From: Candidatus Eiseniibacteriota bacterium
Lineage (GTDB): Bacteria; Arandabacterota; Arandabacteria; JAGLYR01
Reading direction: 5' to 3'
Length of the DNA stretch: 24,669 nt
Assembly (NCBI GenBank): GCA_023132135.1
Contig: JAGLYR010000224.1
Location: 1-24,669 of the forward strand
In this document: piece after piece, positions 1,285 through 23,762 of the stretch
How the letters are laid out: the number at the start of each line of letters is the position of its first letter
Numbering within the stretch: position 1 is the stretch's first letter
Position numbers and translations under genes: made by a program
The notes under the pieces: generated by a model
The model's input: only the letters and a program-made list of their open reading frames with translations
Database searches by the model: none
What the model was told of the DNA's origin: nothing

Positions 1285-1285
1285 C

Positions 1286-2434: not shown

Positions 2435-2452
2435 TCGAACCCCTAGCCTTCG

Positions 2453-2569
2453 CCCTATTTCCTATTTCCCATTTACTATTGCCTATTTCCTGTGGGTGCC
2501 TGGCGACGCCATCTGCCGCTGGCGAAGATCAGTGAATGGGAAATCGGAAATCGTGAATCGGAAATAGGG
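2453..2569. repeat. Inverted pair of degenerate 7-bp tandem-repeat arrays
   Basis: The left arm (2453-2492) is a run of CCTATTT-like heptamers. The right arm (2530-2569) is a run of GGAAATC/GGAAATA-like heptamers. Aligned as reverse complements, the 40-base arms match at about 30 positions, including a perfect 10-base outer end (CCCTATTTCC). The 37-base centre is GC-rich and holds a small stem TGGCG-ACG-CCA. The arms are AT-rich against a GC-rich background. The rest of the 186-bp spacer (about 2583-2613) is a low-complexity stretch of GCGAGA-type repeats when read on the minus strand. Heptameric short repeats are known between genes in other bacteria (for example the STRR repeats of cyanobacteria); kinship with those is not shown. 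As RNA the arms could form a long imperfect hairpin between two GT9 genes. Confidence 0.8.
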
Positions 2570-2620
2570 TCATGTCCCCGATCCTCGCCCTTTCGCGCTC
2601 TCGCTCTCGCCCCGTCGCCG

Positions 2621-3658: not shown

Positions 3659-3683
3659 TATAATCCGGGCTCGCAGCAGGGAT

Positions 3684-5564
3684 TCATGAATTCTGAGCAG
3701 TTCGCTGCCGGAACTGCGTCTCGTGCAGACGCCGGTAGATGCCCGGCCGGGCCAGGAGGCTTTCGTGGTTTCCGACGGCTACAATCCGCCCGGTGTCCAT
3801 CACCACAATCTTGTCGGCGTTCTGGACGGTTGAGAGGCGGTGCGCAATCACGAGCGTGGTCCGGTCCTCCATCAGCCGATCCAGGGCTTCCTGGACCAGG
3901 AACTCGGACTCGGAATCGAGAGAGGATGTCGCTTCGTCCAGAATGAGAATGGGGGGATTCTTCAGGATGGCCCGGGCGATGGCGAGACGCTGCCTCTCTC
4001 CCCCGGAGAGCTTCACGCCGCGATCGCCGATCACAGTCTCATAACCCTCCGGAATCTCCTCAATGAAGTTATGCGCATTCGCCGCGATTGCCGCCTCAAC
4101 AACGGCTTCGTGAGTTGCTCTCTTCAGTCCGTACGCGATGTTGTTCCAGATCGTGTCGTTGAAGAGGATTGTTTCCTGTGTGACAATGCCCATCAGCCTG
4201 CGGAGAGATTGGACATTGAGGTCGCGGAGATCGCGGCCATCCAGCGTGATGCAACCCGAGGTGGGATCGTAGAACCGCGGTACGAGATCAACTAGGCTGG
4301 ATTTGCCCGCGCCCGAGGGGCCCACGATCGCAACGACTTCGCCCGCGCTGACCCGGAGACGGATATCCCGAAGAACCAGACGTTCCTCTTCGTAGCCGAA
4401 GGAGACATCATGAAACTCCAGATTCTCCCGGAGATTCCTGATCTCTCCCGCCCCGGGTTTCTCAACAATGTCCGGTTCCCTATCCAGGAAGTCAAACACT
4501 CGCCGCGCCGCTACCAGACCTTCCTGAAGCTGCGTGTTCACCTGGGTCAGCTTCTTGATGGGGCTCATGGCGGAAATCATGGCCGCGACAAAGATAATGA
4601 ACCAGTCCGGAGAGAGCCCCGTACCCTCAAGCACCTGGAGACCGCCGTACCAGAGGACAATCAATGCACCCACAACCGCCATGAACTCGGCCAGTGGCGT
4701 AGCGAGCGAGCCCACGCGTTGAAGTTTCACGAGCGATCTGTAGTACCCGTCGGTCCGGCCCCGAAATCTCTCGATCTCCCGTTCCTCCATGGCGAAGGCT
4801 TTCACAATACGGATGCCGGACACGGTCTCCTGGAGGATGGTCGTAAGGTCCGCCATCCGTTGTTGTGACAGAGCGCTGTATTTCCTGAGTTTCCGGCTCA
4901 CGCGGGCGATCACCCACATCATGGGAGGCAGAACCACGAATGACACCAGAGCAAGCTGCCAGCTGATCCACAGAACCAGGCTCAGGTAGAACACCACCAG
5001 AAACGCGTCCCGCACCAGGTTGGTGAACACTGCGGACACCGCTTGGCGAACGAGGGTCACATCGTATGTGATGCGTGAGATAATCTGCCCCGTCCGCCGG
5101 CCGTGAAAAAAGGACAGCGAGAGCCGGTGAATCTGTTCATAGAGATCATTTCGGAGATCGCGCACCACCGCCTGTTCCACGGAGATCAGGAGGAATCTCT
5201 GCCCGTAGGCGAAGACTCCCTTGAGGAAGGTGAACGCCAGAAGTCCGATGCAGACCCTCCCGAGAGATGCGACCGCCGATTCCCTCAGGAACAGTCCCAT
5301 GATCCACTGCTTGACCTCATCCCGCAGCTGGCCCACCTTCTCCGGAAGGGACTCTTCAAGGGTTTCGAGATCCTCCACCGATGTAACCGGGGAAATTGCC
5401 ACCGGACCAGCCGATGACTCCAGGAACAGGACATTCAGAAATGGCAGCAGCATTCCTACCGAGAAGACGCTGGTCACGGCAAAGAGCATCATGCACAGAA
5501 CGGCGCCCGTCATCTTGAACCCGTACGGCCGGATGTATCGCAGTAATCTGTAGTAGGTTTTCAC
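3684..5564 (-). CDS. msbA: Lipid A export ABC transporter, MsbA-like
   Basis: A 626-residue half-transporter: an exporter-type membrane domain (residues 1 to about 340) fused to an ATPase domain. In the ATPase domain are Walker A GPSGAGKS (415-422), the Q-loop glutamine in VTQETILF (Q463), signature LSGGERQR (519-526), Walker B ILILDEATSSLD (539-550) and H-loop AHRLS (H575). MsbA flips lipid A-core from the inner to the outer leaflet of the inner membrane. The assignment rests on its place among lipid A and heptosyltransferase genes; other exporters share the same architecture. An unusual feature is a predicted extracytoplasmic loop of about 50 mostly polar residues (about 48-98) between the first two membrane helices, longer than in E. 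coli MsbA. The start is GTG, overlapping the upstream stop as GTGA, so translation is probably coupled. Confidence 0.85.
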   Translation of the reverse strand: MKTYYRLLRYIRPYGFKMTGAVLCMMLFAVTSVFSVGMLLPFLNVLFLESSAGPVAISPVTSVEDLETLEESLPEKVGQLRDEVKQWIMGLFLRESAVASLGRVCIGLLAFTFLKGVFAYGQRFLLISVEQAVVRDLRNDLYEQIHRLSLSFFHGRRTGQIISRITYDVTLVRQAVSAVFTNLVRDAFLVVFYLSLVLWISWQLALVSFVVLPPMMWVIARVSRKLRKYSALSQQRMADLTTILQETVSGIRIVKAFAMEEREIERFRGRTDGYYRSLVKLQRVGSLATPLAEFMAVVGALIVLWYGGLQVLEGTGLSPDWFIIFVAAMISAMSPIKKLTQVNTQLQEGLVAARRVFDFLDREPDIVEKPGAGEIRNLRENLEFHDVSFGYEEERLVLRDIRLRVSAGEVVAIVGPSGAGKSSLVDLVPRFYDPTSGCITLDGRDLRDLNVQSLRRLMGIVTQETILFNDTIWNNIAYGLKRATHEAVVEAAIAANAHNFIEEIPEGYETVIGDRGVKLSGGERQRLAIARAILKNPPILILDEATSSLDSESEFLVQEALDRLMEDRTTLVIAHRLSTVQNADKIVVMDTGRIVAVGNHESLLARPGIYRRLHETQFRQRTAQNS

Positions 5565-6658
5565 GGCCGCTCTTCCCTCACTCGTTCCCCGCTGCGCTCG
5601 CTGCGCAGGCGCGGTACCAGAATCTCCACAAGCCCGAGCAGTTCATCCTCGGAGAAGTGTTCCGCGGAAATCACTTTCAGTCGGGCCGATTCCGGAGGAA
5701 CCATGCTACGGGGCATCGTTGGGGGAAGAGACGCCAGGGTCGGTACCCCCATAGCCACAGCAAAATGCAGGAGGTTCGTTGCTCGGCAGAGAAAGATGTC
5801 GCAGCTGGCGAGGATCGACAGCACGTCCCTGACAGTCCGGCAGGCCAAGTCCTCGGCCCCCTCGACAGCGGTCGGTTCCCCTCGTTGCCAGCAGGCGGCC
5901 GGGGGATCCTCCTGGAATACCACGAACTTGGCGCCGAATGCTCGCTGAAGCACCCGGCCCATCCGGGCCATCTCAGGCGGCTCCTCCATGAGAGTACCTG
6001 CCGCCTCGAGTCCCACCAGAATCCCGCCTTGCCCCAGGCCCCTCAGATGGACCAACTGCCCGGCGATCTTCCTCTCGTTCTCTGTGGGCAGCCACCCTGT
6101 CCCGATTCCCGAGACGTCGATGCCCACGGATCGAAGCAGTGTCAAACCTCGAGTCGCCACGTAAGGGTTTGCCGTCGGGGCATCCACAACCACGTTGTAG
6201 AGGCCGTGCCCATCCCCATCTCTGAACGACACGCGGGCCGTGGCCCCCGACAGGTAGCCGACGAGGGATTTCACCGAGTCGTGCGCATGGTCCAGCGAGA
6301 AAAGCGTGTCGAAACCTCTGGTGCGCAGTTCCGAAACAATCTGCCGAAACGCTCTCCAGTTGGACGGCGGATCCAGTGGATAGCACAGGATAGCCTCATC
6401 CAGCCCCGGAGCATCCGCCAGGAGATCAGACGCCGCAGAACTCGCCAGCATGGATATCCGCGTATCGGGATAAGCCCGTCTCAGAGCACGGACAACAGGC
6501 AGGGCATGGACCATGTCCGCCAAGGACTCCGAGGGAATGAGAAGGATCCCGCGCGGGTGCCGGAGGGTTTCGCTGAGGGCAACCACACCACTGGGATACC
6601 GGGCTCGCGCCCCACGAATCACCAGATTCAGGAACCACTCTCGAAAAAGTGAGCGCAT
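5561..6658 (-). CDS. Degenerate GT9-like (heptosyltransferase-fold) protein
   Basis: A 365-residue protein with the overall layout of GT9 enzymes but weak motifs. Residues 38-61 (GILLIPSESLADMVHALPVV onward) match the GT9 opening strand and helix, followed by the usual YPDTRISMLASS second strand. In the donor half the normal GNDTGxxH motif is replaced by CRATNLLHFAVAMGVPTLAS (291-310): the His and the following helix remain, the Asp-Thr-Gly does not. The PGA...KRWP segment is also unrecognisable (GLEAAGTLMEEPPEMARMG, about 216-234). It may be an altered-specificity or non-catalytic relative. An AGGGGAT Shine-Dalgarno precedes the ATG. The gene overlaps msbA by 4 nt, suggesting linked expression with LPS export. 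The true substrate is unknown. Confidence 0.6.
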   Translation of the reverse strand: MRSLFREWFLNLVIRGARARYPSGVVALSETLRHPRGILLIPSESLADMVHALPVVRALRRAYPDTRISMLASSAASDLLADAPGLDEAILCYPLDPPSNWRAFRQIVSELRTRGFDTLFSLDHAHDSVKSLVGYLSGATARVSFRDGDGHGLYNVVVDAPTANPYVATRGLTLLRSVGIDVSGIGTGWLPTENERKIAGQLVHLRGLGQGGILVGLEAAGTLMEEPPEMARMGRVLQRAFGAKFVVFQEDPPAACWQRGEPTAVEGAEDLACRTVRDVLSILASCDIFLCRATNLLHFAVAMGVPTLASLPPTMPRSMVPPESARLKVISAEHFSEDELLGLVEILVPRLRSERSGERVREERP

Positions 6659-6735: not shown

Positions 6736-7176
6736 CTATTCAATGTCGATCGTGATCTTTTTCGGGGGAGGCTTGTCGCTCTTGGCCATTCTGAGCTCGA
6801 GGAATCCGTTCTCGTAGCTCGCCGTCACTCCCTCTGCATCAAAAGGCACCGGGATCCGAATCCGGCGCTCGAAGGGGCCGACGTTGATTTCCATCTTGTA
6901 GAAGTGCTTCCGTCCGGGCGGGGTGGGATCCTTGCGCTGGCCGCGAATCAGCACGTCATCCCCCTCGACCGTGATCTCGAAATGGTCCCGGCCCATCCCC
7001 GAAACATCCATCCGGATCACCATGGCATCTTCCGTCTCGTAGACATCCGTGGCCGGTCGCCAGACAGCCTTTGCGCTGACCATGACGGGGGTACGGGGCA
7101 ACGCATAGTGCGAGAGAAGCCCTTCGACAAAATCCTCCATGTCGGCGCCTTCGTCCCTCTTCTTGGGATCCGACAT
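6736..7176 (-). CDS. Small heat shock protein, Hsp20/alpha-crystallin family
   Basis: A 146-residue small heat-shock protein. A short variable N-terminus (1 to about 37) precedes an alpha-crystallin domain: PATDVYETEDAMVIRMDVSG (41-60), DHFEITVEGDDVLIRGQRK (64-82) and the hallmark ASYENGFLELRM (119-130). The protein ends in KKITIDIE, whose I-x-I triplet (I141-I143) is the usual C-terminal oligomer-anchoring motif. The family holds unfolding proteins in an ATP-independent, refoldable state in the cytoplasm. GAGGGGAAGG just before the ATG is a strong Shine-Dalgarno. It lies 24 nt after the Minf_1886-like gene and shares its promoter (7621-7649). No CIRCE (HrcA) element was seen upstream, so heat control, if any, is not evident from the sequence. 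Confidence 0.93.
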   Translation of the reverse strand: MSDPKKRDEGADMEDFVEGLLSHYALPRTPVMVSAKAVWRPATDVYETEDAMVIRMDVSGMGRDHFEITVEGDDVLIRGQRKDPTPPGRKHFYKMEINVGPFERRIRIPVPFDAEGVTASYENGFLELRMAKSDKPPPKKITIDIE

Positions 7177-7200: not shown

Positions 7201-7581
7201 CTAGCCCCTGTTGTGCCACGGGTACTTCCGTTCAAAAACCTCTTCGAAATCGTACACATCCGTGAAGTCGTCGCGCCTGTCGGATTCCGTCTTGCTGAGG
7301 AGACCCGCCTCAATCATGTTGAACACGATATCCCCGAAGTCCTGCGTGCGATGGACTCCCCAGTGGTCCATGACCGTCTTTGCCATCGGCCCATATTGCT
7401 CGACCGCCATGAGCCGGATTCCCTCCAGCAGCTGCCGACCTGTCAGATGCCCCTGAATTCCGAAGTGCGAAGCAGCAAAGTCCAAACTCCCGCGCACGAA
7501 GTCATAGGCCTCCGGGCGGTACCGCGGATCCTTGGCTACCATCTCCCGTACTTTCTCCAACACTTCGGCGTCCTTGCTCAT
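7201..7581 (-). CDS. Small conserved protein resembling the Minf_1886 family
   Basis: A 126-residue acidic soluble protein without signal peptide or membrane segment. Its pattern YRPEAYDFVRGSLDFA (about residues 21-36), then HLTGRQLLEGIRLMAVEQYG (45-64), AKTVMDHWGVHRTQDFGDIV (67-86) and a DFTDVYDFEEVFERKYPW tail (105-122), resembles the uncharacterised Minf_1886 family, which I recall as mostly reported from Planctomycetes, Verrucomicrobia and relatives. This is recognised from memory of the conserved pattern, not from a search. No function is known. It is the first gene after a good promoter, and the hsp20 gene follows directly. A link to stress response or proteostasis is therefore conceivable, but is inference from position only. 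GAGGGAA precedes the ATG. Confidence 0.72.
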   Translation of the reverse strand: MSKDAEVLEKVREMVAKDPRYRPEAYDFVRGSLDFAASHFGIQGHLTGRQLLEGIRLMAVEQYGPMAKTVMDHWGVHRTQDFGDIVFNMIEAGLLSKTESDRRDDFTDVYDFEEVFERKYPWHNRG

Positions 7582-7620
7582 CGACTCAGTTCCCTCGCGC
7601 TTTTGACCCTCTCATTTTCT

Positions 7621-7649
7621 ATGTTAGCCCCGAAGCCAGGTACTGTCAA
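7621..7649 (-). promoter_or_regulatory. Predicted sigma70-type promoter for the Minf_1886-like/hsp20 block
   Basis: Read on the minus strand, TTGACA (7644-7649) is followed after exactly 17 bases by TAACAT (7621-7626). The -35 box is a perfect consensus and the -10 box has four of six matches, including the leading TA and final T. The first start codon is at 7581, about 40 bases downstream. The -35 box overlaps the stop codon of nadB (7646-7648), so the promoter is squeezed into the end of the preceding gene. It would give the chaperone/msbA/heptosyltransferase block its own transcription apart from the lipid A genes upstream. Confidence 0.65.
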
Positions 7650-9289
7650 GGGTTCTCGCCGCCCACAGACTGCGAACCGTAATGCGGCGTCGCGGGTTTC
7701 TGGAGAACTGTATCGTGCTGCCAGTGAACGTCGTCACGCTCGGTGTAATCGAGGTTGCAGTGAAGACCCCGGCTCTCCTTGCGGGTCAGGGCACAGCGAA
7801 CGATCAGGAGCCCTACGGTCACTATGTTCCTGAGCTCCACAAGATCGGGCGCAACGCGGAACCTGCGGTAGTAGCCCTCTATATGCCGGCTGAGTAGTCT
7901 GAGCCGGCTCTCGGCCAGTTCGAGTCTCTCATCCCTGCGGACAATCCCCACGTAGTCCCACATCAGCGTTCGGACGCTGTCCCAGTCGTGATCCAGAACT
8001 ACCGATTCGGGCATGGGCGTATTTCCACCCTCTACCCACTCCGGGATCTTCTCCGTGGCCACCCGAGTGCGGCAGAGCTCTGCGCCGGCCGCTTCGGCGG
8101 CGCGCGCGGCAAAAACCACAGCTTCGAGAAGAGAGTTGCTGGCTAGGCGGTTGGCCCCGTGCACTCCCGTACAAGCCACCTCGCCCGCCACGTACAGCCC
8201 GGGGATGTTGGTCCTCCCGTGCAGGTCGCTCACAACCCCGCCGCACATGTAGTGAGCGGCTGGGACCACGGGTACGAGATCCCTGGAAATGTCAATTCCG
8301 TACTTGAGGCACCCGCGGTAGATATGGGGAAAGCGGGAGCGGATGACCTCCGGCGATCCCACTGGAGCCAGATCCAGCCATACGTGTTTCTCGCCGCGTT
8401 GCTTGATTTCCTGGTCGATGGCCCGGGCCACGACGTCCCGTGGGGCAAGGCCACCCTCCGGGTGGTAGCGCTCCATAAAAGTCGCGCCGTCCAGAGTCCG
8501 CAGGACAGCGCCCTCGCCCCTCACAACTTCCGAGATCAGAAAGGACTTCGCCTCGGCATGATACAGACACGTGGGATGGAATTGAACGAATTCAAGATTG
8601 GCCACCTGCGCGCCCGCCCGGTAGGCCATCGCAACCCCATCGCCCGTAGCAACGTCCGGATTGCTGGTATAGAGATATATCTTGCCGCACCCGCCTGCAG
8701 CCAGGAGAGTCACCGCTGCTTCGTACTGCTCTATCTCCCCGGTGCATCGATTGAGAGCCCAGACGCCTCGGCAAGGATGCCGACCTGACCTGGGTTCCCC
8801 CTCCCCCTGCTCCACCGCCAGTTCGAGCGCCAAGCGGTCCTCGAAGACCGTGATATTGGGATGCGCCTTGGCTGCGTTGACCAGCGCATTCTCAATCTCG
8901 GCGCCTGTGAGATCCTCCGCATGTACAATGCGCCGCCTGGAATGCCCCCCCTCGCGCCGCAGGTCGGGCAGGCCATTGCTCTGGTTGCTGAAGCGAACTC
9001 CTGTTTCCATCAATTCCCTGATCGCCTGGGGGCCGGATCGGACCATCAGCTCCACCGCGTCCCTGTGGCAGAGTCCTGCTCCCCCGCGTAGAGTATCCTC
9101 GATATGTAGATCGAAGGAATCGTCCTTGGCCAGCACGGAAGCGATTCCCCCTTGCGCGTAGTTCGTGTTCGAGTCGGATTCCTTCTTCTTCGTAACCAGA
9201 ATCACGCGACCGTGGGACGCTGTCTTGAGAGCGAACCAGAAACCGGCAATGCCGGAACCAATGACCAGGAAATCCGAGTTGCCATTCAT
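7646..9289 (-). CDS. nadB: L-aspartate oxidase
   Basis: A 547-residue flavoprotein that oxidises L-aspartate to iminoaspartate, the first step of de novo NAD synthesis; the product normally goes to NadA. Visible: FAD-binding FLVIGSGIAGFWFAL (7-21), NYAQGGIASVLAKDDS (43-58), the substrate-loop REGGHSRRRIVHAEDLTG (112-129), ANLEFVQFHPTCLYH (230-244), LAPRDVVARAI (281-291), AAHYMCGGVVSD (344-355) and EVACTGVHGANRLASNSLLE (370-389). The helical C-terminus ends with ESRGLHCNLDY. These separate it from the related SdhA and FrdA flavoproteins. An upstream ATG at 9319 would add ten residues unlike the family. The ATG at 9289 was chosen because it overlaps the stop of waaA-lpxK as ATGA and places the dinucleotide fold at the N-terminus. 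nadA and nadC are not in the window. Confidence 0.95.
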   Translation of the reverse strand: MNGNSDFLVIGSGIAGFWFALKTASHGRVILVTKKKESDSNTNYAQGGIASVLAKDDSFDLHIEDTLRGGAGLCHRDAVELMVRSGPQAIRELMETGVRFSNQSNGLPDLRREGGHSRRRIVHAEDLTGAEIENALVNAAKAHPNITVFEDRLALELAVEQGEGEPRSGRHPCRGVWALNRCTGEIEQYEAAVTLLAAGGCGKIYLYTSNPDVATGDGVAMAYRAGAQVANLEFVQFHPTCLYHAEAKSFLISEVVRGEGAVLRTLDGATFMERYHPEGGLAPRDVVARAIDQEIKQRGEKHVWLDLAPVGSPEVIRSRFPHIYRGCLKYGIDISRDLVPVVPAAHYMCGGVVSDLHGRTNIPGLYVAGEVACTGVHGANRLASNSLLEAVVFAARAAEAAGAELCRTRVATEKIPEWVEGGNTPMPESVVLDHDWDSVRTLMWDYVGIVRRDERLELAESRLRLLSRHIEGYYRRFRVAPDLVELRNIVTVGLLIVRCALTRKESRGLHCNLDYTERDDVHWQHDTVLQKPATPHYGSQSVGGENP

Positions 9290-11685
9290 GTTGCAGTCCT
9301 CATGGTTTCCCGCGGCCACTCCCGAAGCATTCCGTCCAGGGCCTGTTCCAGGTCCTTCTCACCGGCGAGGAACTCGGGAACCACGCTCAGGACCAACCAG
9401 CTTTCCGCCGTGACGGAAAGGGACTCCAGACGGACTCCATCCTTTTCGGTCGTAACAATCCAGCGCGCTCTGGAAAGCGCCCGGCGTGTGATCGATTCGA
9501 CCTCGGCACGCGTGAAAACATGGTGATCGCTATAGCGCCAGCGGTCATCAACTCTCGCACCCAGGTTTTCGAGCGTTTCCTCAAACCTCGCCGGCGCGGC
9601 CAGTCCGGACACGGCGGCCACACTCTCGCCGCTCAGAGCCTCCAGGGGCACCGGATCCCCCGAACAGAGGTGTCGAAGACCGGTAGCGCGATACCGGCAC
9701 TCCGCCACAGGGAGGTGCGGAAACCGGTTCTCAAGGTACCGCCGAAACGGCAAGGGGTCCGAGGAATTCCGATGCGTCAGGATCAGCACGTCGGCGCGAG
9801 AGAGTGCGGCCAGCCCCTCGCGCAGCCAGTGCTCTCCCATGAACCGGCCTTGGTCCGACCAGGAGCGGCTGTCCAGGAGAACGATGTCCAGGTCCCGCTC
9901 CAGAGCCAGGTGCTGGAACCCATCATCCAGAACCAGGAGATCGCACCCAAGGATCTGCTCCGCATGGCGTCCGCTCCGAACACGACTCTTCCCCACCAGC
10001 ACAGGGACATCCGGGACCATTCTCGCCAACCAGCAGGGCTCGTCACCCAGTTCAGCCCAATGTGTCCGCGAGAGAGCCTCCGGGGTAACCACGCTCACTC
10101 CGTCGGACCGGACGCTGCTTCCATATCCCCGGGTCAGAATCCCCACACGTCGCCCCAACCCAACGAAGCGGGCAGCCAGGTATGCAACCATGGGAGTCTT
10201 GCCGGTTCCTCCCAGGGACAGATTCCCCACCGATAGAACAGGCACATCCAGCCGCGTACCGCGGCGGATTCCACTGCCGTACAACCACCGGTTGACCGCC
10301 GACACCCCCTCGTGAACGACCGAGACAGCACTCACGACCGCCCGCGGGGCTACCGGGCGCCCGGATGAAAGGACCCGCCGGTCCGCCCGGCTTTCCTGCG
10401 CCGCCGCATCGCGCGGGAGGATGTCGTGCTCGTCCATCGCCTGGACCGCGCGCCGGGCCGCCCCTCTGAACCCGGCTACGACGCGAAGGGCCTGGTCCCC
10501 CGCATGCTTTCGATCATCCGGGTTCTTGAGCCAGCGATCCACAACATCGGCGATGTCCTGCGCGACCTCGACTTCCACACCGCCTCCAGCCTCGACCAGG
10601 CGGTCCGCCTGGATTCGGTAGTTGTCCATGTGCTTGCCGAAAATCACCGGTACACCAAGAGCCGCGGGTTCCAGAGGATTGTGCCCGCCCAGAGGCGCTA
10701 TGCCTCCCCCCACGTAGGAGAAGGCCGCCAGTTTGTAGAATCGGCCCAGGTCCCCGATGGTGTCCAGGAGAATCACCTGCACCGGCATTTCCGCAGACGT
10801 TCCCTGCCGGACCCGGGTCCACCGGACCCAGCGGAGATTCCTGCGGGAGACCTCACGTTCCAGACCGTCGACTCGCTCAAGGTGCCGCGGCGCCAGGACC
10901 AGCACATGGGGCCGTTTGCCCTCCACCTGCTGGTAGCCATCCAGGATCGGAGACTCCTCCCCTGGTCTCACGCACCCGGCCACCCATACAGGAAGCGAGG
11001 AGCGATCACCCAGGAGAAACCGCAGTTCCTCCGCCAGCGCGCCGTCTCCCTGCGGCGGGATGGCGTCATACTTGGAACTGCCCAGCACCAGCACCCGGCG
11101 CGGGTCCGCCCCCAGAGCCAGGAACCGTCTCCGGTCCGTGTCGGACTGGACCCCGAACAGATCCACATGCTCCAGGACCTCGGCCAGAAACCCCCGGAAC
11201 GGACGATACCTGCGGAAACCGGTTCCCGATATTCGCGCATTCAACATCGAGATTTTCATCCCTCTCCGTCCGGCTTCCCTGAAGAGGTTGGGCCAGATCT
11301 CCGTTTCCATGACAATCAGCGTCTGGGCCCCCACCTCCTCGATACTCCGGCGCACAACCCGGCCGATATCCAACGGCAAGTAGAACGTCCCCGTCACGCC
11401 CGCGATCTCCCCGGCCGTCCTCTGCCCGGTGCGGGTCATCGTCGACACCACAATTTCGCAGGAGGGATGCGTGGACCGAATGCTTTTCACCAGTGGACCG
11501 ACGCCCGTGAGCTCTCCCACCGAGGCGGCATGGATCCAGAGCCTCGGTCCCGACGGCGGAGCGATCTCCGGATGCCCCATGCGTTCGCCCCACTCACCCG
11601 GGTTCCTGACCCTCAGAGCGTGAAGCACTGGGGCCGCGGCCCCATAGGCAATGGATGCCAACACGTTGTAGAGCAAGTAGCTCAT
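9286..11685 (-). CDS. waaA-lpxK: Fused Kdo transferase (WaaA) and tetraacyldisaccharide 4'-kinase (LpxK)
   Basis: One uninterrupted 799-residue reading frame with two complete enzymes. Residues 1 to about 420 are a Kdo transferase: N-terminal membrane anchor MSYLLYNVLASIAYGAAAPV, catalytic-Glu loop AASVGELTGVGPL (E58), METEIWPNLF (126-135), and donor site GGGIAPLGGHNPLEPAALG (326-344). Residues about 445-799 are LpxK: VPVLSVGNLSLGGTGKTPMV with Walker A GGTGKTP (492-498), GDEP (547-550, region of the catalytic base), LVLDDGFQH (584-592), DHH (720-722) and TTEKDGVRL (745-753). Between them is a polar Ala/Arg/Asp-rich linker (about 420-445). LpxK phosphorylates the lipid A disaccharide and WaaA then adds Kdo to that product, so the fusion joins consecutive steps, though in reverse order along the chain. 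The true start is the ATG overlapping the lpxB stop (ATGA); the same frame stays open to 12153 but is there only a shadow of lpxB. Confidence 0.93.
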   Translation of the reverse strand: MSYLLYNVLASIAYGAAAPVLHALRVRNPGEWGERMGHPEIAPPSGPRLWIHAASVGELTGVGPLVKSIRSTHPSCEIVVSTMTRTGQRTAGEIAGVTGTFYLPLDIGRVVRRSIEEVGAQTLIVMETEIWPNLFREAGRRGMKISMLNARISGTGFRRYRPFRGFLAEVLEHVDLFGVQSDTDRRRFLALGADPRRVLVLGSSKYDAIPPQGDGALAEELRFLLGDRSSLPVWVAGCVRPGEESPILDGYQQVEGKRPHVLVLAPRHLERVDGLEREVSRRNLRWVRWTRVRQGTSAEMPVQVILLDTIGDLGRFYKLAAFSYVGGGIAPLGGHNPLEPAALGVPVIFGKHMDNYRIQADRLVEAGGGVEVEVAQDIADVVDRWLKNPDDRKHAGDQALRVVAGFRGAARRAVQAMDEHDILPRDAAAQESRADRRVLSSGRPVAPRAVVSAVSVVHEGVSAVNRWLYGSGIRRGTRLDVPVLSVGNLSLGGTGKTPMVAYLAARFVGLGRRVGILTRGYGSSVRSDGVSVVTPEALSRTHWAELGDEPCWLARMVPDVPVLVGKSRVRSGRHAEQILGCDLLVLDDGFQHLALERDLDIVLLDSRSWSDQGRFMGEHWLREGLAALSRADVLILTHRNSSDPLPFRRYLENRFPHLPVAECRYRATGLRHLCSGDPVPLEALSGESVAAVSGLAAPARFEETLENLGARVDDRWRYSDHHVFTRAEVESITRRALSRARWIVTTEKDGVRLESLSVTAESWLVLSVVPEFLAGEKDLEQALDGMLREWPRETMRTAT

Positions 11686-12839
11686 CCCGTTCGGCCTGCT
11701 CCGCTTCTCGCGAGCGACAGTGCGATCGCCGCAGCGCGGCGCGATGCGTCCCTGTATCCCAGGCGACCGCGGACTCTCTTCAACGCTTCCCTCATCTCCC
11801 GTTGTCTCTCCGGCGATTCCAGTATCCTCAGCGCCTCGTTCGCTATCCTCTCCGGCGTGGCATCGTGCTGAACCAGCTCGGGCACGACCTGCTCTCCTGC
11901 CACCAGATTCGCCAGAGCAATGTGTGGAACCCGCACGACCGCGCGACCGATCAGCCACGACAATAGCGAGAGTCGATAGAGCACAACCATGGGAGTCTCG
12001 AGACAGGCGGTTTCCAGGGTGGCGGTTCCCGAAGCGACGAGCACCATCTCCGATGCCCGAATCACCGTACGGGCATCTCCCGTGACGATGTCCAGCCATG
12101 ATGATGAACTCCCCGACAGACGGGCCAGCTGCCGAGCGCGAACGTCCGACCACGCCGCGGCCACGAAGCGAAGCTCGGGAAAGGCTCTCCGGATCCGGTC
12201 CGCCGCGCTCAGCATCACCGGAAACATCCGGCTGATTTCACTCTCGCGAGATCCCGGCAGGAGTCCGATAAGCCGCTGATCCGCCACCATCCCCAAACTC
12301 TCGCGGAGAGCCCCTGAGTTGTCTTCGTCTTCGTCAAGGGATTCCAGCAGGGGGTGTCCTACGAACTCGACATCGACGCCCGAGCCCGCGTAGAAGGCTT
12401 CTTCAAAAGGAAGAATCGTCACCATTCGGTCCACCAGCCGCGCAATCTTCTTCACTCTCGCCCGTCCCCAGGCCCAGACCTGCGGACTGATGTAGTACAT
12501 GACGGGGACCTCATGCCGTCTGGCAGTACGGCACATCCGCAGGTTGAAACCCGGATAGTCCACCGGGATGAAGAGATCGGGCGGCTCGTCCCGGAAGAAG
12601 CGGCCCAGCTGCTGCTGAAGGCGTCTCAGGGCCGGAAGGTGCCGAACCACTTCGGCGAATCCGATCACCCCCAGATCCACCTCCGCCAGAAGATGAACGC
12701 CCGCCTCGCGCATGGCCGACCCGCCGACCCCGAACAGCCGGCAGTGGGGATCCTCCGCTCTGAGCGCCCGCGCCAACCGGGCCGCATGATTCTCTCCCGA
12801 AGGTTCTCCGGCCACTATCAGTATCCGGGGTCCTGTCAC
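11682..12839 (-). CDS. lpxB: Lipid-A-disaccharide synthase
   Basis: A 385-residue GT19 enzyme that joins 2,3-diacyl-glucosamine 1-phosphate to UDP-2,3-diacyl-glucosamine, giving the lipid A disaccharide at the inner face of the cytoplasmic membrane. Visible motifs: ILIVAGEPSGENHAARLARA (6-25), FIPVDYPGFNLR (90-101), MYYISPQVWAWGRARVKK (114-131), LIGLLPGSRESEI (190-202), LVASGTATLETACL (267-280) and PHIALANLVAGEQVVPELVQ (305-324). Length and motif order are normal for LpxB. The start codon is GTG, with a TGAGGA Shine-Dalgarno about eight bases upstream. It lies 18 nt after the Gfo/Idh gene, and its stop overlaps the start of waaA-lpxK (ATGA). Confidence 0.96.
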   Translation of the reverse strand: MTGPRILIVAGEPSGENHAARLARALRAEDPHCRLFGVGGSAMREAGVHLLAEVDLGVIGFAEVVRHLPALRRLQQQLGRFFRDEPPDLFIPVDYPGFNLRMCRTARRHEVPVMYYISPQVWAWGRARVKKIARLVDRMVTILPFEEAFYAGSGVDVEFVGHPLLESLDEDEDNSGALRESLGMVADQRLIGLLPGSRESEISRMFPVMLSAADRIRRAFPELRFVAAAWSDVRARQLARLSGSSSSWLDIVTGDARTVIRASEMVLVASGTATLETACLETPMVVLYRLSLLSWLIGRAVVRVPHIALANLVAGEQVVPELVQHDATPERIANEALRILESPERQREMREALKRVRGRLGYRDASRRAAAIALSLARSGAGRTG

Positions 12840-12857
12840 CAGCAGTTCCTCACCAGG

Positions 12858-13820
12858 CTATCGCTTGAGGGCAACCCCGCGGCGACGTTCGATGTCCTCG
12901 AGCACCCGCAGCGCGAGTTCAAGAGCAGCTCTTCCATCTACCCCGCCAACAACGGGTTGTGAGCCATCCCTAATGCACCTTGTGAAGGCCCTGATCTCTT
13001 CTTTCAAGGGCTCTTTCGCCTCCATCCCCATGCATTCATGCTCAATGGAGAAACCCTCCGGCCCCGCCCCGGCAACGGCCAACCGCCGGAACACCTCGGT
13101 CTTGCCAGCCAGGCAATCCACCGACACGTAGGCATTGGACTGGAAGAAGCGGATCTTTCTCATCTTCTCCCTCGAAACCCTGGAAGCCGTGAGATTGGCA
13201 ATAGCCCCGTTGCGGAACTCCAGCCTGGCGCTGGCAATATCCGTGTATTCCGTGAGAACCGGAATCCCGACGGCATCGACCCTGTCCACTTCATCCGCAA
13301 TCAGATGCAGCACGATATCCAGATCATGAATCATGAGGTCCAGAACCACGGCTACGTCACTTCCCCGGGGACTGAAACCGGCGAGCCGATGACACTCCAC
13401 AAAGCGGGGATCTTCCGCGATCTCAAGCGCTGCCCGGACAGCGGAGCTGAAGCGCTCCACATGCCCCACCTGGAGCACGACACCTTTGCCCCGCGCCGCA
13501 TCGATCAATGCGTCGGCCTCCTGGAGACTGGCAGCGATAGGCTTTTCCACCAGAAGATGCACGCCTCTCTCCAAGGCTGCGAGTCCCTCTCGGTAATGCC
13601 AGGGGGTAGGCACTGCTACGGAGACAGCTTCCACGTGCCCCAGCAGTTCGCCGGGCGTATCGTACGGCCGGCACTGAAACCGGGATGCGGTTTCCCTCGC
13701 CCTTTCGCAGTTGCTGTCGGCAACTCCAATCAGATCCGTCTCGTCCAGCTCGCTGTAGATCCGGGCGTGCAGACTGCCCAGGTGTCCTACACCGATCACA
13801 CCCACCTTCAGTGGCTTCAA
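12858..13820 (-). CDS. Gfo/Idh/MocA-family oxidoreductase (possible UDP-GlcNAc 3-dehydrogenase, GnnA-like)
   Basis: A 320-residue NAD(P)-dependent oxidoreductase. The Rossmann motif VGVIGVGHLGSLHARIY is at residues 6-22, the family hallmark EKP at 92-94 inside LLVEKPIAASLQEADALID, and VVLDLMIHDLDIVLHL (158-173) holds the catalytic-region HD. Similar genes sit between lpxA and lpxB in several diderms. In Acidithiobacillus and Leptospira the related GnnA oxidises the 3-OH of UDP-GlcNAc so that GnnB can aminate it, giving amide-linked lipid A. No GnnB-like aminotransferase is in this window, so the reaction is unproven. The start was taken as TTG (13820) with GAGGGGGA seven bases upstream. An in-frame ATG at 13880 would force the terminator hairpin to be translated (EPAFWRKPACLF), which looks artificial. 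Confidence 0.85.
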   Translation of the reverse strand: MKPLKVGVIGVGHLGSLHARIYSELDETDLIGVADSNCERARETASRFQCRPYDTPGELLGHVEAVSVAVPTPWHYREGLAALERGVHLLVEKPIAASLQEADALIDAARGKGVVLQVGHVERFSSAVRAALEIAEDPRFVECHRLAGFSPRGSDVAVVLDLMIHDLDIVLHLIADEVDRVDAVGIPVLTEYTDIASARLEFRNGAIANLTASRVSREKMRKIRFFQSNAYVSVDCLAGKTEVFRRLAVAGAGPEGFSIEHECMGMEAKEPLKEEIRAFTRCIRDGSQPVVGGVDGRAALELALRVLEDIERRRGVALKR

Positions 13821-13827
13821 CGAAGAT

Positions 13828-13835
13828 TCCCCCTC
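13828..13835 (-). promoter_or_regulatory. Ribosome binding site supporting a TTG start
   Basis: GAGGGGGA on the minus strand lies seven bases before the TTG at 13820 and directly after the T-rich tail of the hairpin at 13836-13870. It is the main reason for choosing TTG over the upstream ATG for the Gfo/Idh gene. Confidence 0.7.
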
Positions 13836-13870
13836 AAATAAACAAGCCGGCTTTCTCCAGAAAGCCGGCT
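13836..13870 (-). terminator. Rho-independent terminator-like hairpin after lpxA
   Basis: On the minus strand, AGCCGGCTTTC and GAAAGCCGGCT pair perfectly over 11 bp around a TGGA loop, followed by TGTTTATTTG. This is the classic form of an intrinsic terminator. It lies 26 bases after the lpxA stop and 16 bases before the TTG start of the next gene on the same strand. It may end the bamA-to-lpxA transcript, or act as a partial terminator that lowers expression of the Gfo/Idh-lpxB-waaA/lpxK-nadB genes. A weaker 7-bp stem (13914-13932) sits just before it, inside the end of lpxA. Confidence 0.85.
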
Positions 13871-13895
13871 CCCGCGCCAAATCGCTCTTGGTCTG

Positions 13896-14702
13896 TCACG
13901 AAATACCCCGGCCGGAGTTCTCCACGAACTCCGCCAGGTGCCGAACTTCGGGGAACGGTTCCAGCTCCTTCCGGACAGCCTCCACTGCCTGCCGTACATT
14001 GAATCCGCTCCTGTACAGCAACCGGTAGACTCTCTTCAGTTCCAGCCTCACCTCGGAGGGAATCCCCCGCCTCCTCAGTCCGACCGCATTGATCCCTGCG
14101 ACCTTCAGGGGATTGCCCGCCGCGAGAAAATACGGCGGGACATCCTTGGCCACCCGCGACAGCCCGCCAACGAACGCCATTCTACCGATCCGGACAAATT
14201 GGTGAACGGGTGTGAGCCCCCCAACAGCAGCGCAATCCTCGACTTCCACGTGTCCGCCCAGCTGCACACCATTGGCCAAGACAATGCCGTTGCCCAACAC
14301 ACAGTTGTGAGCAAGGTGAACGTAGGCCATCAGGAGACAGTCATTTCCTATGACCGTCTCACCGTCGGCTTCGGTCGCCCGATTGACGGTCACGTACTCC
14401 CGAATGGTGTTCCGATCCCCGATGACTACGCGGCTTGGGGCGCCATCATACTTGAGATCCTGCGGCACTCCGCCCAGAACCGCCATGGGGTAAATCTGGC
14501 AGTCGCTGCCAATCTGGGTGCCCGCCTCGATACACACATGCGACGACACCTGCGTGCCGTCACCAATCGCCACATCTTCGTGGATTACCGAATACGGACC
14601 AATGGAAATCCCAGATCCCAGCTCGGCCTTGGGATGGACAATCGCTGTCGGGTGAATGCTCGTCAGCCGAGCAACACTGCCCAACCCCTCCGGTGGGGTC
14701 AT
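13896..14702 (-). CDS. lpxA: UDP-N-acetylglucosamine O-acyltransferase
   Basis: A 268-residue left-handed beta-helix acyltransferase that starts lipid A synthesis by moving a 3-hydroxyacyl chain from acyl carrier protein to UDP-GlcNAc (or its 3-amino analogue). Hexapeptide repeats run from about residue 17 to 190. The catalytic histidine lies in YVHLAHNCVLGNG (H132, equal to H125 of E. coli), followed by ANGVQLGGHVEVEDCAAVGG (143-162) and LTPVHQFVRIGRMAFVGG. The family signature NAVGLRRRGIP (205-215) opens the C-terminal helical domain. About ten extra residues precede the first repeat. The start is kept because AGAAGGAG lies about eight bases before it and the gap to lpxC-fabZ is only 26 nt. 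O- versus N-acylation preference cannot be judged by eye. Confidence 0.96.
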   Translation of the reverse strand: MTPPEGLGSVARLTSIHPTAIVHPKAELGSGISIGPYSVIHEDVAIGDGTQVSSHVCIEAGTQIGSDCQIYPMAVLGGVPQDLKYDGAPSRVVIGDRNTIREYVTVNRATEADGETVIGNDCLLMAYVHLAHNCVLGNGIVLANGVQLGGHVEVEDCAAVGGLTPVHQFVRIGRMAFVGGLSRVAKDVPPYFLAAGNPLKVAGINAVGLRRRGIPSEVRLELKRVYRLLYRSGFNVRQAVEAVRKELEPFPEVRHLAEFVENSGRGIS

Positions 14703-14728
14703 CTTGCCACTCCTTCTCCCGGGCCTTC

Positions 14729-16051
14729 CTACCGCTTGACAATCATGGACAGCAGTTCAGCTTCCGCCACCAGCTCGCCATCGACAAAAGCCCTTCCCTT
14801 CATCTTGCAGGTCCGGGATCGCAGTTTAAGCAGGTTCAATTCAAATCGCAGCTGGTCACCCGGAATCACGGGCTTGCGGAATCTGGCTTTGTCAATGCCC
14901 ATGAAGTATACCAGGCGTTCCTGCGGGTTTTCCACCGTGCTCAGGAGCAGCACACCACCAACCTGGGCCATGGCCTCAACGATCAGAACAGCCGGCATGA
15001 TTGGATGACCGGGGAAATGGCCAACGAAGAAGGGTTCGTTGACGGTGACGTTCTTGATGCCCACCACCCGCTCTCCCTCCACCAGCTCCAGAATCCTGTC
15101 CACCAGCAGGAACGGGTACCTGTGGGGCATGATTTCCTGGATAGCACGGATGTCCCAGCTGGTGGACGCCTTGGGCCGTACCGACGGAATTGGATGCCTG
15201 GAGGCCAGATCGGCCGCTTCCCTCATTTTCCGCACCAGCCTGACATTGCTGGCATGGCCGGACTTGACGGAAATGATATGACCCAGAATAGGCATGCCGA
15301 GGAGCGAGAGATCGCCCAGCAGGTCCAGAATCTTGTGGCGGACGAACTCGTTCTTGAATCTCAGCGGTTCCTCGTTCAGGATTTGCTCATCGCTGACCAC
15401 TACAGCGTTGAGCAGGCTCCCCCCCTTGATCAGACCTGTTTTCCGCAGTTCCTCAACCTCTTCAATCAGAGAGAAGGTCCTCGCTGGTGCAATCTCGCTC
15501 TCGAAGGTCTTCTCATCTATGTCGAACGACGCATACTGCGTCCCCACCACAGGATGGTCATATTCCAGGGTAAAACTGATCCTGAACCCGTCGTGGGGCA
15601 GGGCCATCAGCTCAACCCCGTTCTTATGGAAACTGATCGGGTGCGTAACCCGGAAATATCGCTTCGGAGCGTTCTGCTTCACAGTTCCCGCGCGCTTCAG
15701 CACATCAACGAAGGGCTGCGAGCTCCCATCCGGCTCTGCCGGTTCCAGCGAGTCAATCTCTATGAGTACATTGTCGATACCCAAACCGGCCAGAGCGGCC
15801 AGGACGTGCTCGACCGTGCTGACCTGCGCATCTCCGACCTGCAGTGTAGTGCGGCGGATACTGTCCTTGCTGCTGGGAGTGTTGCGGATGTCTGCCTGAA
15901 TGACGGGCTTGCCGGGTAGGTCTATCCGAACGAACTTGACGCCGTGGTTCACCGGGGCCGGCTTGAAGGTCAGTGTGCTCTCTTCGCCGCTATGCAGGCC
16001 CCTGCCGGTGAACGAAACCGCCTCTGCGATGGTTCTCTGCGAAGGGCTCAT
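14729..16051 (-). CDS. lpxC-fabZ: Fused UDP-3-O-acyl-GlcNAc deacetylase (LpxC) and 3-hydroxyacyl-ACP dehydratase (FabZ)
   Basis: A 440-residue two-domain protein. Residues 1 to about 290 are LpxC, the zinc deacetylase that commits the cell to lipid [20 protein letters not shown] (5-23), [18 protein letters not shown] (78-95, Glu81 and zinc ligand His82), [17 protein letters not shown] (236-252, ligands His239 and Asp243) and [10 protein letters not shown] (264-273, His266). Residues about 300-440 are Fab[18 protein letters not shown] (307-323), [20 protein letters not shown] (340-359, catalytic His345 and Glu359) and [10 protein letters not shown]. FabZ commonly reads MPGV where this has MPAV. 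The fusion places two enzymes that use the same 3-hydroxyacyl pool in one chain; such fusions are known in Bacteroidetes and other non-proteobacterial diderms. The ATG overlaps the lpxD stop as ATGA. Confidence 0.96.
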
Positions 16052-17094
16052 TTGTCATCACTCTCGCCGCGCCCGCCTTCCAGCTCCAGGACACGGCGCT
16101 CCAGTTCCCGGAGCTTCTGCAGAAGTTCCGGGAGTCTCTGCATCGTAGCATTGATCCGTGCGGACTGGGCATGGGGCCGCGCCGGATAGCCCGACACGCA
16201 CGTACCGGGAGAAACCGACTTGGTCACACCAGCCTGAGCTCCCACCACCGCGTTGTCACCGATCTTGATATGCCCCACAACACCCGACTGCCCGGCCAGC
16301 GTGACGTTGTTGCCGATTTCCGTGGACCCGCTGATTCCAACCTGCGCAACGATGATAGAATTCTCACCAATGACCACATTGTGGCCGATCTGCACCAGAT
16401 TATCAATCTTGGTCCCCCGCCCGATACGAGTTGTCCCCGTTGTGGAGCGGTCTATGCAGACATTCGCACCGATCTCCACATCATCTGCCACAACCACGTT
16501 TCCAACCTGCGGGACCTTCTGGTATTCATCGCCGTCCTTGGCAAAGCCAAAACCGTCCGAACCGACGACCGCGCCACAGTGAATGATCACGCGCTTGCCG
16601 ATCGAAACGTCCTCCCGCACGCTGACGTTGGGATAGATCAAGGTGTCGTCACCGATCCGGGTGCGATCACCCACGTAGCAACCCGCCAGAAGGACCGCCC
16701 GATCTCCGATCTCGGCTCCATCCCCCACCACCACATGCGCCCCGATGGCAACTGCCTTTCCCAAACGGACATTCTCCCCGATAACGGCTTTTGGATGAAT
16801 ACCATCAGGGAAGTTCCCCCGATCGGGGAAAAAAATCTTCACCACTTTGAGGAAAGCCAGGTACGGATTATCGTCGTAGATGACCGGACTGCTTGGCTGG
16901 AACGAGTTCCGGCTCATGATCACGGCCGAAGCCCTCGTCGTCCGCAGGTACCCCTCGTACCTCGGATTCGCCAGGAAGGTGACATCACCCTCCTCTGCCT
17001 CCCGGATTCCGGAGACCCCGCGAATTTCGATCGAGCCGCTACCCACCAGCTCTCCACCGATGCGCTCGGCGATCTCCCCCAATGTAACTACCAT
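16048..17094 (-). CDS. lpxD: UDP-3-O-acylglucosamine N-acyltransferase
   Basis: A 348-residue acyltransferase adding the second, amide-linked 3-hydroxyacyl chain to UDP-3-O-acyl-glucosamine. An N-terminal uridine-binding domain (1 to about 97) contains [20 protein letters not shown] (27-46). A left-handed beta-helix follows, built of hexapeptide repeats (about 100-300), with [20 protein letters not shown] (178-197) and the catalytic His238 in [18 protein letters not shown]-terminal charged helix (about 317-342) may be a coiled coil that aids trimer formation or carrier-protein binding. AGGAGAT lies about ten bases upstream of the ATG. It follows ompH by 51 nt, and its stop overlaps the start of lpxC-fabZ. 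Confidence 0.96.
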
Positions 17095-17145
17095 GAGAAA
17101 CCGATCTCCTGTGTGTTGCCGCGCGCGGCCCTATGGCAACCGCGT

Positions 17146-17700
17146 CTATTCCAATTCCTTGTTCAGTTCTTCAAGGACGCGCTCGGTCATGTCCAGCGAC
17201 GCCTTACCGTAGGCAATGCTGCCATTGGCCGCGTCGAAAATGATGTCGAAGTCTTCCTCTTCTCCAATCCGGGCAAGAATCTCGTTGATCTTCTCTATAA
17301 TTGGACGTGTCAGCTCCACGTTCCGCTGAACGGCTTTCCCATCCTGTCCCCATATCGACTGAACGAACCGCTCGTAGTCCATCTGCCTCTGGCGCAGCTC
17401 GGCATCCCTCTCTTGCAGCTTTGCTTCACTTAGCATGAGGCGCTGAGACTCGAGCTCGTTGGCCATGGACATGATCTCTCCATGCATCTGCTCAGCCTCT
17501 TCTTCCCACGCCTTCAGTTCTTTGTCAAGTGTTTGTTGCGCCTCATCTGCAACCCCATATTCCGCCAGAAGACGGACCGAGTCAATGTACCCCATCTTTA
17601 TGTCCGCCGCAAGTATTCCGTGAGGAAAAACAAGCGCAACCAGAAGCACCCCGGCCAACCCCAAACCCGCCTGCATCACTCGCATCCTGAACCTGTCCAT
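17146..17700 (-). CDS. ompH: OmpH/Skp-family periplasmic chaperone
   Basis: A 184-residue protein with a signal peptide (about 1-31, hydrophobic core GLGLAGVLLVALVF, likely cut after ILA) and a mature part dominated by long charged helices (about 50-140), as in the tentacles of Skp. The mature N-terminus IKMGYIDSVRLLAEY matches the usual start of this family, where a first strand reads like IGYVDxxR. Skp-type proteins hold unfolded outer-membrane proteins in the periplasm before assembly by BamA, whose gene lies just upstream. The start at 17700 was preferred to an in-frame ATG at 17754: it has GGGAGGGAG five bases upstream and gives a clean signal peptide, while the longer form would overlap the end of bamA. 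Confidence 0.88.
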   Translation of the reverse strand: MDRFRMRVMQAGLGLAGVLLVALVFPHGILAADIKMGYIDSVRLLAEYGVADEAQQTLDKELKAWEEEAEQMHGEIMSMANELESQRLMLSEAKLQERDAELRQRQMDYERFVQSIWGQDGKAVQRNVELTRPIIEKINEILARIGEEEDFDIIFDAANGSIAYGKASLDMTERVLEELNKELE

Positions 17701-17714
17701 GCCGACTCCCTCCC

Positions 17715-19997
17715 TCAGAACTGCACAGCACCCAGTTGGAAGTGCCATTCCCAACCCGGCCCACCAAACATCTCATCTTTGTCAAAACCGTACCCGTAGT
17801 CGAGTCCGATGGTTCCGATCATCGGGGCTTCAAACCGGACCCCGAACCCGGCTCCCTTCTTCAGAGTACTGGGCTGCGCTTCCGCCACGCAATTCCACGT
17901 GTTCCCCGCATCCAGGAAGAACAGGCCGAAAAACTGGGGCCCCCCGATCGGGAACTTGAGCTCGGTCTTCAGAATGGTCATCACCTTGCCGCCATTGTCC
18001 CGCTGGTTTCCCTCGGGGACGATCTCGAAGTCCGAGTACCCCCTCAATCCGTCGCGCATGGTTCCTCCCAAGCGGAATTTCTCGTAGATGGGCACTTCCT
18101 CGAGCGCCGAGTGGCCCCTCAGGAATCCGCTCCGGGACTGGACCGCCAGGACAAAGGGACCCACCACCGATTTGAACCACTGCATTCCCAGCTCCACTTT
18201 TGAGTATGGCTGGAACAGCGACCCGCCCTCGGACTGCCGCCATACGCCGGCAACCTCGTAGCCCAGCGTCGAGATGGACCCGAGTGTCGGGAAGAACGGT
18301 GAGTCCGTGCTGTTTCGGATGAGCATGAGGCGAACACTGGCGGTCTTTCCCGTGCCCGCCAAGGCTTTCACTGTAGCACTTGCGTCGGAGAATGCCTGAA
18401 TGTCCCACTGCTCCAGACGGGTCCGGCCATAGATCCGCGTGTAGTCCAGCCACGGGAAAGGGCGCCCGATATTGATCGACGCTCCCGCCGCTTCCTCCGC
18501 AAAAGCATCCCCCCGCCGCCGCCGCCGGGTGTGATAGAGTTGAACGCCCAGGGAGGTCGGGGTATCAAACAGCCATGGCTCGTTGAAACCAATCCGGAAC
18601 TGCCCCAGACGGCCGAATTCCCACATAATATCAATTGTCTGCCCCGTGCCCCGAAAGTTCTGCTTTGCCAGCTGGACGGACCCCGTCATTCCATACTGGT
18701 TGCTGTAGCCCGCCCCCATCATGGCCTGGCCCGTCTGCCGCTCCTCTACGGTGAACAGCAGGTCCATTTCGCCTTCACCGGACCCAGCCATCGGTGTCAG
18801 CTGAACATCCTCGAAGAAACCTAGACTGAACACCTCCCGCTGGGAGCGCATCAGGGCCGACCGTCTGAAAACGTCCCCCGGCCGGACCACCAGATCCCGG
18901 CGCACGACCTTCTCGCGGGTGAAGTAGTTGCCCGATATCTCAATCCGCCCGATGTGAGCCTGCACACCCTGATCGATCTGAATATCCAGATCAACACGGT
19001 TCCCATCGCGCTCTTCCGCCGGGACCACACGGCAATACACGTATCCAGCTTCCGAGTAGGCTCCGTAAATCGCGTCGAGACCCATCCTGTAGGCGGTCCG
19101 GTCAAGCACCTCGCCGGTTTCCAGTCCCAACAGAGCGAGGATCCTGGCATCGCCGAAGAGCGTGTCACCCTCGACACTCACATGGCCCACGTGGAAAAGA
19201 TCTCCCTCGTCCACGACGATCACGACGGTCAGGTTCTTCTGCTCCTCGTCGTAGTCCAGGCGATAGTTTGCAACCTCCGCGTCCAGGTAGCCGTGCTCGC
19301 CATACAGGTCCTCGATACGTCCGATGTCCTCTTCGAACTCATCTTCCTTGAAATCTCCCCCGCGAAATAGCCGCCGCTTCCGCGTCTTCAGTACCGAGCG
19401 TACTTCCTTGTCGCTCAGGGCCTTGTTTCCGTCGATTTTCACTTCGCGGACGCGCGTCTTCTCTCCCTCCCGGATCCGGTAGGTCACCACCCAGCGGCCC
19501 TCTCCCACCTCACTGATCTCCACCTCAACGCTGGCCTGGCGATATCCCTTTTTTCCGTACAGGGCTTCGATCTTCCGAACGTCATAGTAGATGGCCCGTT
19601 CACTGACCCTCGCCGCGTGGGGCTGCTCCGTTTCCTTCTCCAGATCATCTCTGGAGATCTTGTCGTTGTCCTTGAAGACCACCCTCTCAAGCCGCCGTTT
19701 TTCCACCACATGCACGGTGAGAACAACGCCGTCCTCTCTCTGGAATCCCTCCACCCGGATGTCCTCGAGCAGACCACGGGCGTACAACCGGCGAATACCC
19801 TGCCGGATCTCTTCGGGCGAGAATGGCCGCCCTGCCTCCGCGCCCAGCAGAGACCGGATGAGCCGGGCCTCCGTGAAGTCGTTTCCCACCACCCGGACCT
19901 CGACAATCCGGGGCTCGGGCTCGGCAGAGATCGAGCTCGACAGGCCTACAACCAGCACGGCCGCCAGAACCATTCCCACGCCACGCGCAACAAGCAT
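17715..19997 (-). CDS. bamA: Outer membrane protein assembly factor BamA
   Basis: A 760-residue Omp85 protein, the central pore of the beta-barrel assembly machinery in the outer membrane. It has a signal peptide (1 to about 25, cut near SISA), five POTRA repeats (about 29-99, 101-178, 181-265, 266-343, 346-418) and a C-terminal 16-strand-type barrel (about 425-760). GGTMRDGLRGYSDFEI (644-659) carries the conserved RGY of the lid loop, and the chain ends in phenylalanine as typical outer-membrane barrels do. A run of five arginines (491-495) encoded by a CGG-rich repeat sits between early barrel strands. AGGA precedes the ATG. It is the first gene after the 212-bp spacer and heads bamA-ompH-lpxD-lpxC/fabZ-lpxA, a widely conserved order. 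Confidence 0.96.
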   Translation of the reverse strand: MLVARGVGMVLAAVLVVGLSSSISAEPEPRIVEVRVVGNDFTEARLIRSLLGAEAGRPFSPEEIRQGIRRLYARGLLEDIRVEGFQREDGVVLTVHVVEKRRLERVVFKDNDKISRDDLEKETEQPHAARVSERAIYYDVRKIEALYGKKGYRQASVEVEISEVGEGRWVVTYRIREGEKTRVREVKIDGNKALSDKEVRSVLKTRKRRLFRGGDFKEDEFEEDIGRIEDLYGEHGYLDAEVANYRLDYDEEQKNLTVVIVVDEGDLFHVGHVSVEGDTLFGDARILALLGLETGEVLDRTAYRMGLDAIYGAYSEAGYVYCRVVPAEERDGNRVDLDIQIDQGVQAHIGRIEISGNYFTREKVVRRDLVVRPGDVFRRSALMRSQREVFSLGFFEDVQLTPMAGSGEGEMDLLFTVEERQTGQAMMGAGYSNQYGMTGSVQLAKQNFRGTGQTIDIMWEFGRLGQFRIGFNEPWLFDTPTSLGVQLYHTRRRRRGDAFAEEAAGASINIGRPFPWLDYTRIYGRTRLEQWDIQAFSDASATVKALAGTGKTASVRLMLIRNSTDSPFFPTLGSISTLGYEVAGVWRQSEGGSLFQPYSKVELGMQWFKSVVGPFVLAVQSRSGFLRGHSALEEVPIYEKFRLGGTMRDGLRGYSDFEIVPEGNQRDNGGKVMTILKTELKFPIGGPQFFGLFFLDAGNTWNCVAEAQPSTLKKGAGFGVRFEAPMIGTIGLDYGYGFDKDEMFGGPGWEWHFQLGAVQF

Positions 19998-22678: not shown

Positions 22679-22694
22679 CTGGATCCTCCCGCGA

Positions 22695-23756: not shown

Positions 23757-23762
23757 GGACGT

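Follow-up and report, generated by a model that had tools for sequence, protein, structure and literature searches.

A probable single-chain WaaA-LpxK protein in the lipid A operon of a Candidatus Eiseniibacteriota bacterium, and its counterparts in Acidobacteriota

The window, the whole stretch of 24,669 nucleotides of DNA analyzed here (contig JAGLYR010000224.1), from an uncultured Gram-negative bacterium of Candidatus Eiseniibacteriota, contains a lipid A operon on the minus strand (7646..19997) with the gene order bamA, skp/ompH, lpxD, lpxC-fabZ fusion, lpxA, Gfo/Idh oxidoreductase, lpxB, waaA-lpxK and nadB, supported by Pfam and NCBIfam matches and by synteny with relatives of the same class. 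In the penultimate gene of this operon, waaA (Kdo transferase) and lpxK (tetraacyldisaccharide 4'-kinase) occupy one reading frame (9286..11685, minus strand; 799 aa). ATGA overlaps tie this gene to both of its neighbors, to the lpxB stop at its own start (11682..11685, minus strand) and to the nadB start at its own stop (9286..9289, minus strand); by the latter overlap nadB, the gene for L-aspartate oxidase (7646-9289, minus strand), adjoins the lipid A genes. The operon includes another fusion, LpxC-FabZ (14729-16051, minus strand), which scores above the cut-off of the NCBIfam model NF009667. Beyond nadB follow a small heat-shock protein (Hsp20) gene (6736-7176, minus strand), placed between nadB and a diverged glycosyltransferase, and, around msbA (256-6658, minus strand), three genes of the Glyco_transf_9 (heptosyltransferase) family together with a diverged relative.

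The fused frame runs unbroken from an ATG at 11685-11683 to a TGA at 9288-9286 and comprises 799 codons plus stop; an earlier note, made from the letters of the window, had described this frame without giving its strand, which is the minus strand. The WaaA half (residues 1-424; 10414..11685, minus strand) contains a complete Glycos_transf_N domain (PF04413; profile positions 2-179 of 179, E = 2.8e-52), aligns by sequence with the solved Aquifex WaaA (2xci), and is covered at residues 7-421 by NCBIfam WaaA models, with scores under the strict cut-offs of those models. Its N-terminal hydrophobic helix and its HxxSxGE and GHNPLEP motifs are all intact; HxxSxGE, whose glutamate is catalytic in WaaA, is invariant in the alignment and also aligned to 2xci. 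The LpxK half (9286..10347, minus strand) carries a near-complete LpxK domain (PF02606; profile positions 5-327 of 328, E = 6.9e-77, 259 bits against a cut-off of 27), reaches 179.7 bits with TIGR00682 (lpxK; cut-off 91.95), and aligns by sequence with the solved Aquifex LpxK (4ehw/4ehx). It retains an N-terminal helix, the P-loop GGTGKTP, and the motifs GDEP, DDGFQH and DHH; the P-loop, the GDEP aspartate and the DHH histidine line up with 4ehw, and the latter two are presumably D99 and H261 of the Aquifex enzyme. Each half thus matches its Aquifex aeolicus counterpart (2xci, 4ehx) and keeps its motifs, but the Aquifex enzymes are separate chains. The Pfam and NCBIfam matches, the uninterrupted frame and the alignments to 2xci and 4ehw bear out what the earlier note had read from the letters, a complete Kdo transferase and a complete 4'-kinase in one open frame with the active-site motifs intact in both halves. 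A second copy of LpxK or Glycos_transf_N was not detected in the rest of the source genome, and KdsA is present there; since the two halves are the sole detected WaaA and LpxK copies of a genome that also has KdsA, both are expected to be functional.

In the predicted structure, both halves are well folded and connected by a short joint that is disordered at model residues 429-450 (pLDDT under 50), in a numbering that begins two residues before the ATG; the relative placement of the two halves is not fixed by the model (pTM 0.53). In the same numbering, helices are predicted at 2-29 (the WaaA anchor) and at 447-472 (the N-terminal helix of LpxK), which suggests two candidate membrane contacts, rather than the single WaaA anchor that had been proposed for this protein. 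The joint corresponds to a polar junction of about 22 residues (10348..10413, minus strand), at the site where WaaA ends in unfused relatives, and agrees with the short polar linker of roughly 25 residues noticed earlier.

In four relatives of the same class, all from another family, the order waaA, lpxK, nadB is kept, and the upstream operon genes also match in the three relatives with enough sequence; waaA and lpxK are two abutting genes in all four. The WaaA proteins of these relatives stop at '...LLP' or one to two residues later, where the fusion reads '...DILPRDAAAQ'. The earlier note had regarded two separate genes at this site in related genomes as speaking against the fusion; such gene pairs do exist in the same class, but the relatives that carry them are distant and belong to a different family, and the window is devoid of a kinase ATG. 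From the WaaA motif to the kinase P-loop, the fusion counts 158 codons, compared to 154-157 in three unfused class relatives and to a median of 157 at 55 separate-pair loci (some of them sharing a genome); this equal spacing indicates that no linker was added. It also rules out a truncated LpxK N-terminus, and with it the former view that the kinase lacks its usual longer N-terminal membrane part. The tandem waaA-lpxK pair of other genomes, usually abutting or overlapping, shares genes, order and spacing with the fusion but yields two proteins.

The junction itself looks coding in the fused frame. Over 30 codons, its codon score is +3.9 in this frame vs. -8.2 and -6.0 in the other two, against backgrounds of 9.6 +/- 4.7 in frame and -8.5 +/- 4.9 for the best off-frame, so that it sits low in the coding range (11th percentile). 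An in-frame ATG was not found between residue 417 and the P-loop of the fusion, whereas in the class relatives, and in most of the other separate kinases inspected, an ATG stands 61-68 codons upstream of the P-loop. The sole GTG near a plausible kinase start, at 10335, lies just before the N-terminal helix of the kinase; its ribosome-binding energy (-3.1) is no better than the background mean (-4.2), and the other window starts tested range from -5.6 to -10.3 with a single exception at -3.3. As a caveat, the separate kinases L033, L008 and L010 also have weak ribosome-binding sites or GTG, and L033 shows GTG only; the ribosome-binding argument is therefore weaker than the argument from the missing ATG, and absent start or ribosome-binding signals do not amount to proof.

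These features of the locus make it very probable that waaA-lpxK codes for a genuine single-chain enzyme, derived from co-transcribed neighboring genes and presumably bifunctional. The frame could also be real while the kinase is additionally or mainly produced from the internal GTG at 10335, or while the chain is cut, and the two enzymes act apart; the position of this GTG directly ahead of the kinase helix and the predicted disorder of the joint would suit such an arrangement, which we nevertheless regard as very unlikely, given the background-level ribosome-binding energy at 10335 and the tolerance of the joined form evident from the conserved fusions in other bacteria.

Such fusions are not restricted to the window. 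A scan of genome contigs yielded 11 further WaaA-LpxK proteins in a single frame (L013-L015, L017-L019, L021, L023 and L026-L028); for ten of them the record title reads Acidobacteria, Bryobacterales or Bryobacteraceae. The eleventh, L028, comes from a record titled Arcobacter sp.; its fused protein is Bryobacteraceae-like and a tree neighbor of L023, and the title of the record is probably wrong. Within one Acidobacteriota order, apparently Bryobacterales, 59 of 61 genomes gave a match, and 58 of these 59 matches span both domains in one frame. No stop occurs in the matched span of 45 of the 58, and one or two stops were flagged in the other 13; the DNA was read for three of the latter (L088, L160 and L162), each of which proved to be one unbroken frame of 768-826 aa with both domains. 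Since whole-genome search frames read through stops, spanning matches were also checked by reading the DNA in a survey of Acidobacteriota, conducted on an even sample of 396 genomes. It contained four true fusions, three from the apparent Bryobacterales order and one (G301, 826 aa) from a separate order; the remaining 24 of 28 apparent spanning matches turned out to be two genes with an intervening stop. The Nitrospirota sample (118 genomes) contained no fusion; all four spanning matches include a stop, and the 816-aa frame of G584 (Nitrospirota) represents two genes. The idea that the fusion might be unique to the window could thus not be upheld: almost all genomes with a match in one Acidobacteriota order carry it, and it is present in a third lineage. 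In many Acidobacteriota (L090-L094, L103, L104, L108-L114), waaA and lpxK share a frame with little beyond one stop between them, a condition of near-fusion.

The Bryobacterales-type proteins (about 780-830 aa) share both enzymes, their order and the single frame with the window protein, but they are only 31-34% identical to it, their WaaA motif-to-P-loop distance is shorter (131-145 codons), and they hold a separate position in the trees. Mapping of the fused state required two changes on a tree of 50 rows and three on a tree of 85 rows, where the three changes are forced by the starred branches; a single clade of the window protein and the Bryobacterales-type set was rejected (AU test, p = 0.005). 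The exact placement of the window protein is unsure, since it forms a long branch; yet the difference in junction length (158 vs. 131-145 codons) and the synteny with unfused relatives point in the same direction as the trees, toward a separate origin. Based on these sequence comparisons, the fusion apparently arose independently in three lineages. Descent of the window fusion from a Bryobacterales-type fusion, by shared ancestry or horizontal transfer, would account for the identical domain order and enzymes; it is highly improbable in view of the AU test, the three changes on the larger tree, the longer junction, and a locus that is syntenic with unfused class relatives, with some doubt left by the long branch.

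An assembly or consensus error is a further alternative. The fusion in the source lineage comes from one metagenome-assembled genome, the lone member of its family among the genomes searched, and the true sequence could, like that of the class relatives, contain a stop (or else an indel) between two abutting genes. With a spacing equal to that of unfused relatives, one base could switch between the two states, and in the class relative L004, where waaA and lpxK share a frame with a lone TGA between them, a single stop codon separates the pair from a fusion. However, a single-base error is unlikely since the stop and the kinase ATG are both gone (the sole nearby GTG has background ribosome-binding energy) and the junction is coding-like only in the fused frame; frameshift noise is argued against by the ATGA overlaps at both ends and the intact neighboring genes, all remaining window genes being unbroken; and many independent assemblies elsewhere carry the same fusion, all of which makes an artifact very unlikely.

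A genuine WaaA-LpxK fusion unites consecutive steps of one pathway, both of which take place on the cytoplasmic side of the inner membrane: lipid IVA is the product of LpxK and the Kdo acceptor of WaaA. In the fusion, the C-terminal LpxK half would use ATP to phosphorylate tetraacyldisaccharide-1-phosphate at the 4' position, and the N-terminal WaaA half would transfer Kdo from CMP-Kdo onto the resulting lipid IVA. The domains stand in the order of the genes and opposite to that of the pathway, as would be expected from a fusion of neighboring genes; the protein probably originated when a tandem waaA-lpxK pair, an arrangement that is widespread, lost the stop and the kinase start between its abutting genes. 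The WaaA anchor and the N-terminal LpxK helix could hold the protein at the cytoplasmic side of the inner membrane, and such tethering of both enzymes is plausible. Likely benefits are a fixed 1:1 ratio of the two activities and their co-localization, which would leave the lipid intermediate just a short diffusion within the membrane. The substrate hand-off suggested in the earlier note is conjectural, as the predicted structure leaves the mutual placement of the halves free (pTM 0.53). Whether selection for a direct passage of lipid IVA from kinase to Kdo transferase lies behind three independent fusions, in the sense of a minimal lipid A metabolon on one chain, is a more speculative proposition that we consider doubtful.

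The gene pair waaA-lpxK has been listed as an "often found gene cluster," and a fused lpxC-fabZ is known (Opiyo et al., 2010; PMC3087551); the passages located in that article do not mention a waaA-lpxK fusion. A description of a WaaA-LpxK fusion, including the Bryobacterales type, was not found in the open-access literature, and within that literature the earlier statement that no characterized example is known still holds. LpxC-FabZ is likewise a fusion of neighboring genes in the same type of operon, but it joins different enzymes and is already curated (NF009667) and described; in contrast, NCBIfam has no model for WaaA-LpxK, which is matched only by the separate WaaA and LpxK families. 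The fusion consists of two textbook enzymes that were joined more than once; it varies what is already well known and is not a new kind of system. Its significance is that, in at least three lineages, one chain combines two successive steps of lipid A assembly. This provides a natural tool for asking if kinase and Kdo transferase come together at the membrane, and annotation pipelines gain a fusion that is yet unnamed in NCBIfam.

Several other features of the locus and its relatives were observed. The Gfo/Idh oxidoreductase gene between lpxA and lpxB (12858-13880, minus strand) codes for a protein with weak likeness to UDP-GlcNAc 3-dehydrogenase (GnnA-like), and may signal a 3-amino lipid A sugar, given a partner aminotransferase. 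In the class relatives L164 and L165, lpxB and waaA are separated by a gap of 700-850 bases, which in L164 holds a gene for a 225-aa protein (7321-7998) resembling, as read by eye, a DUF374 acyltransferase; the single DUF374 match of the source genome lies at another place (G000:C319). Just upstream of bamA and the lipid A operon, clpC, mcsB (protein arginine kinase) and mcsA are adjacent (20210-24278, minus strand); these genes are best known from Gram-positives and occur here in an LPS-making bacterium.
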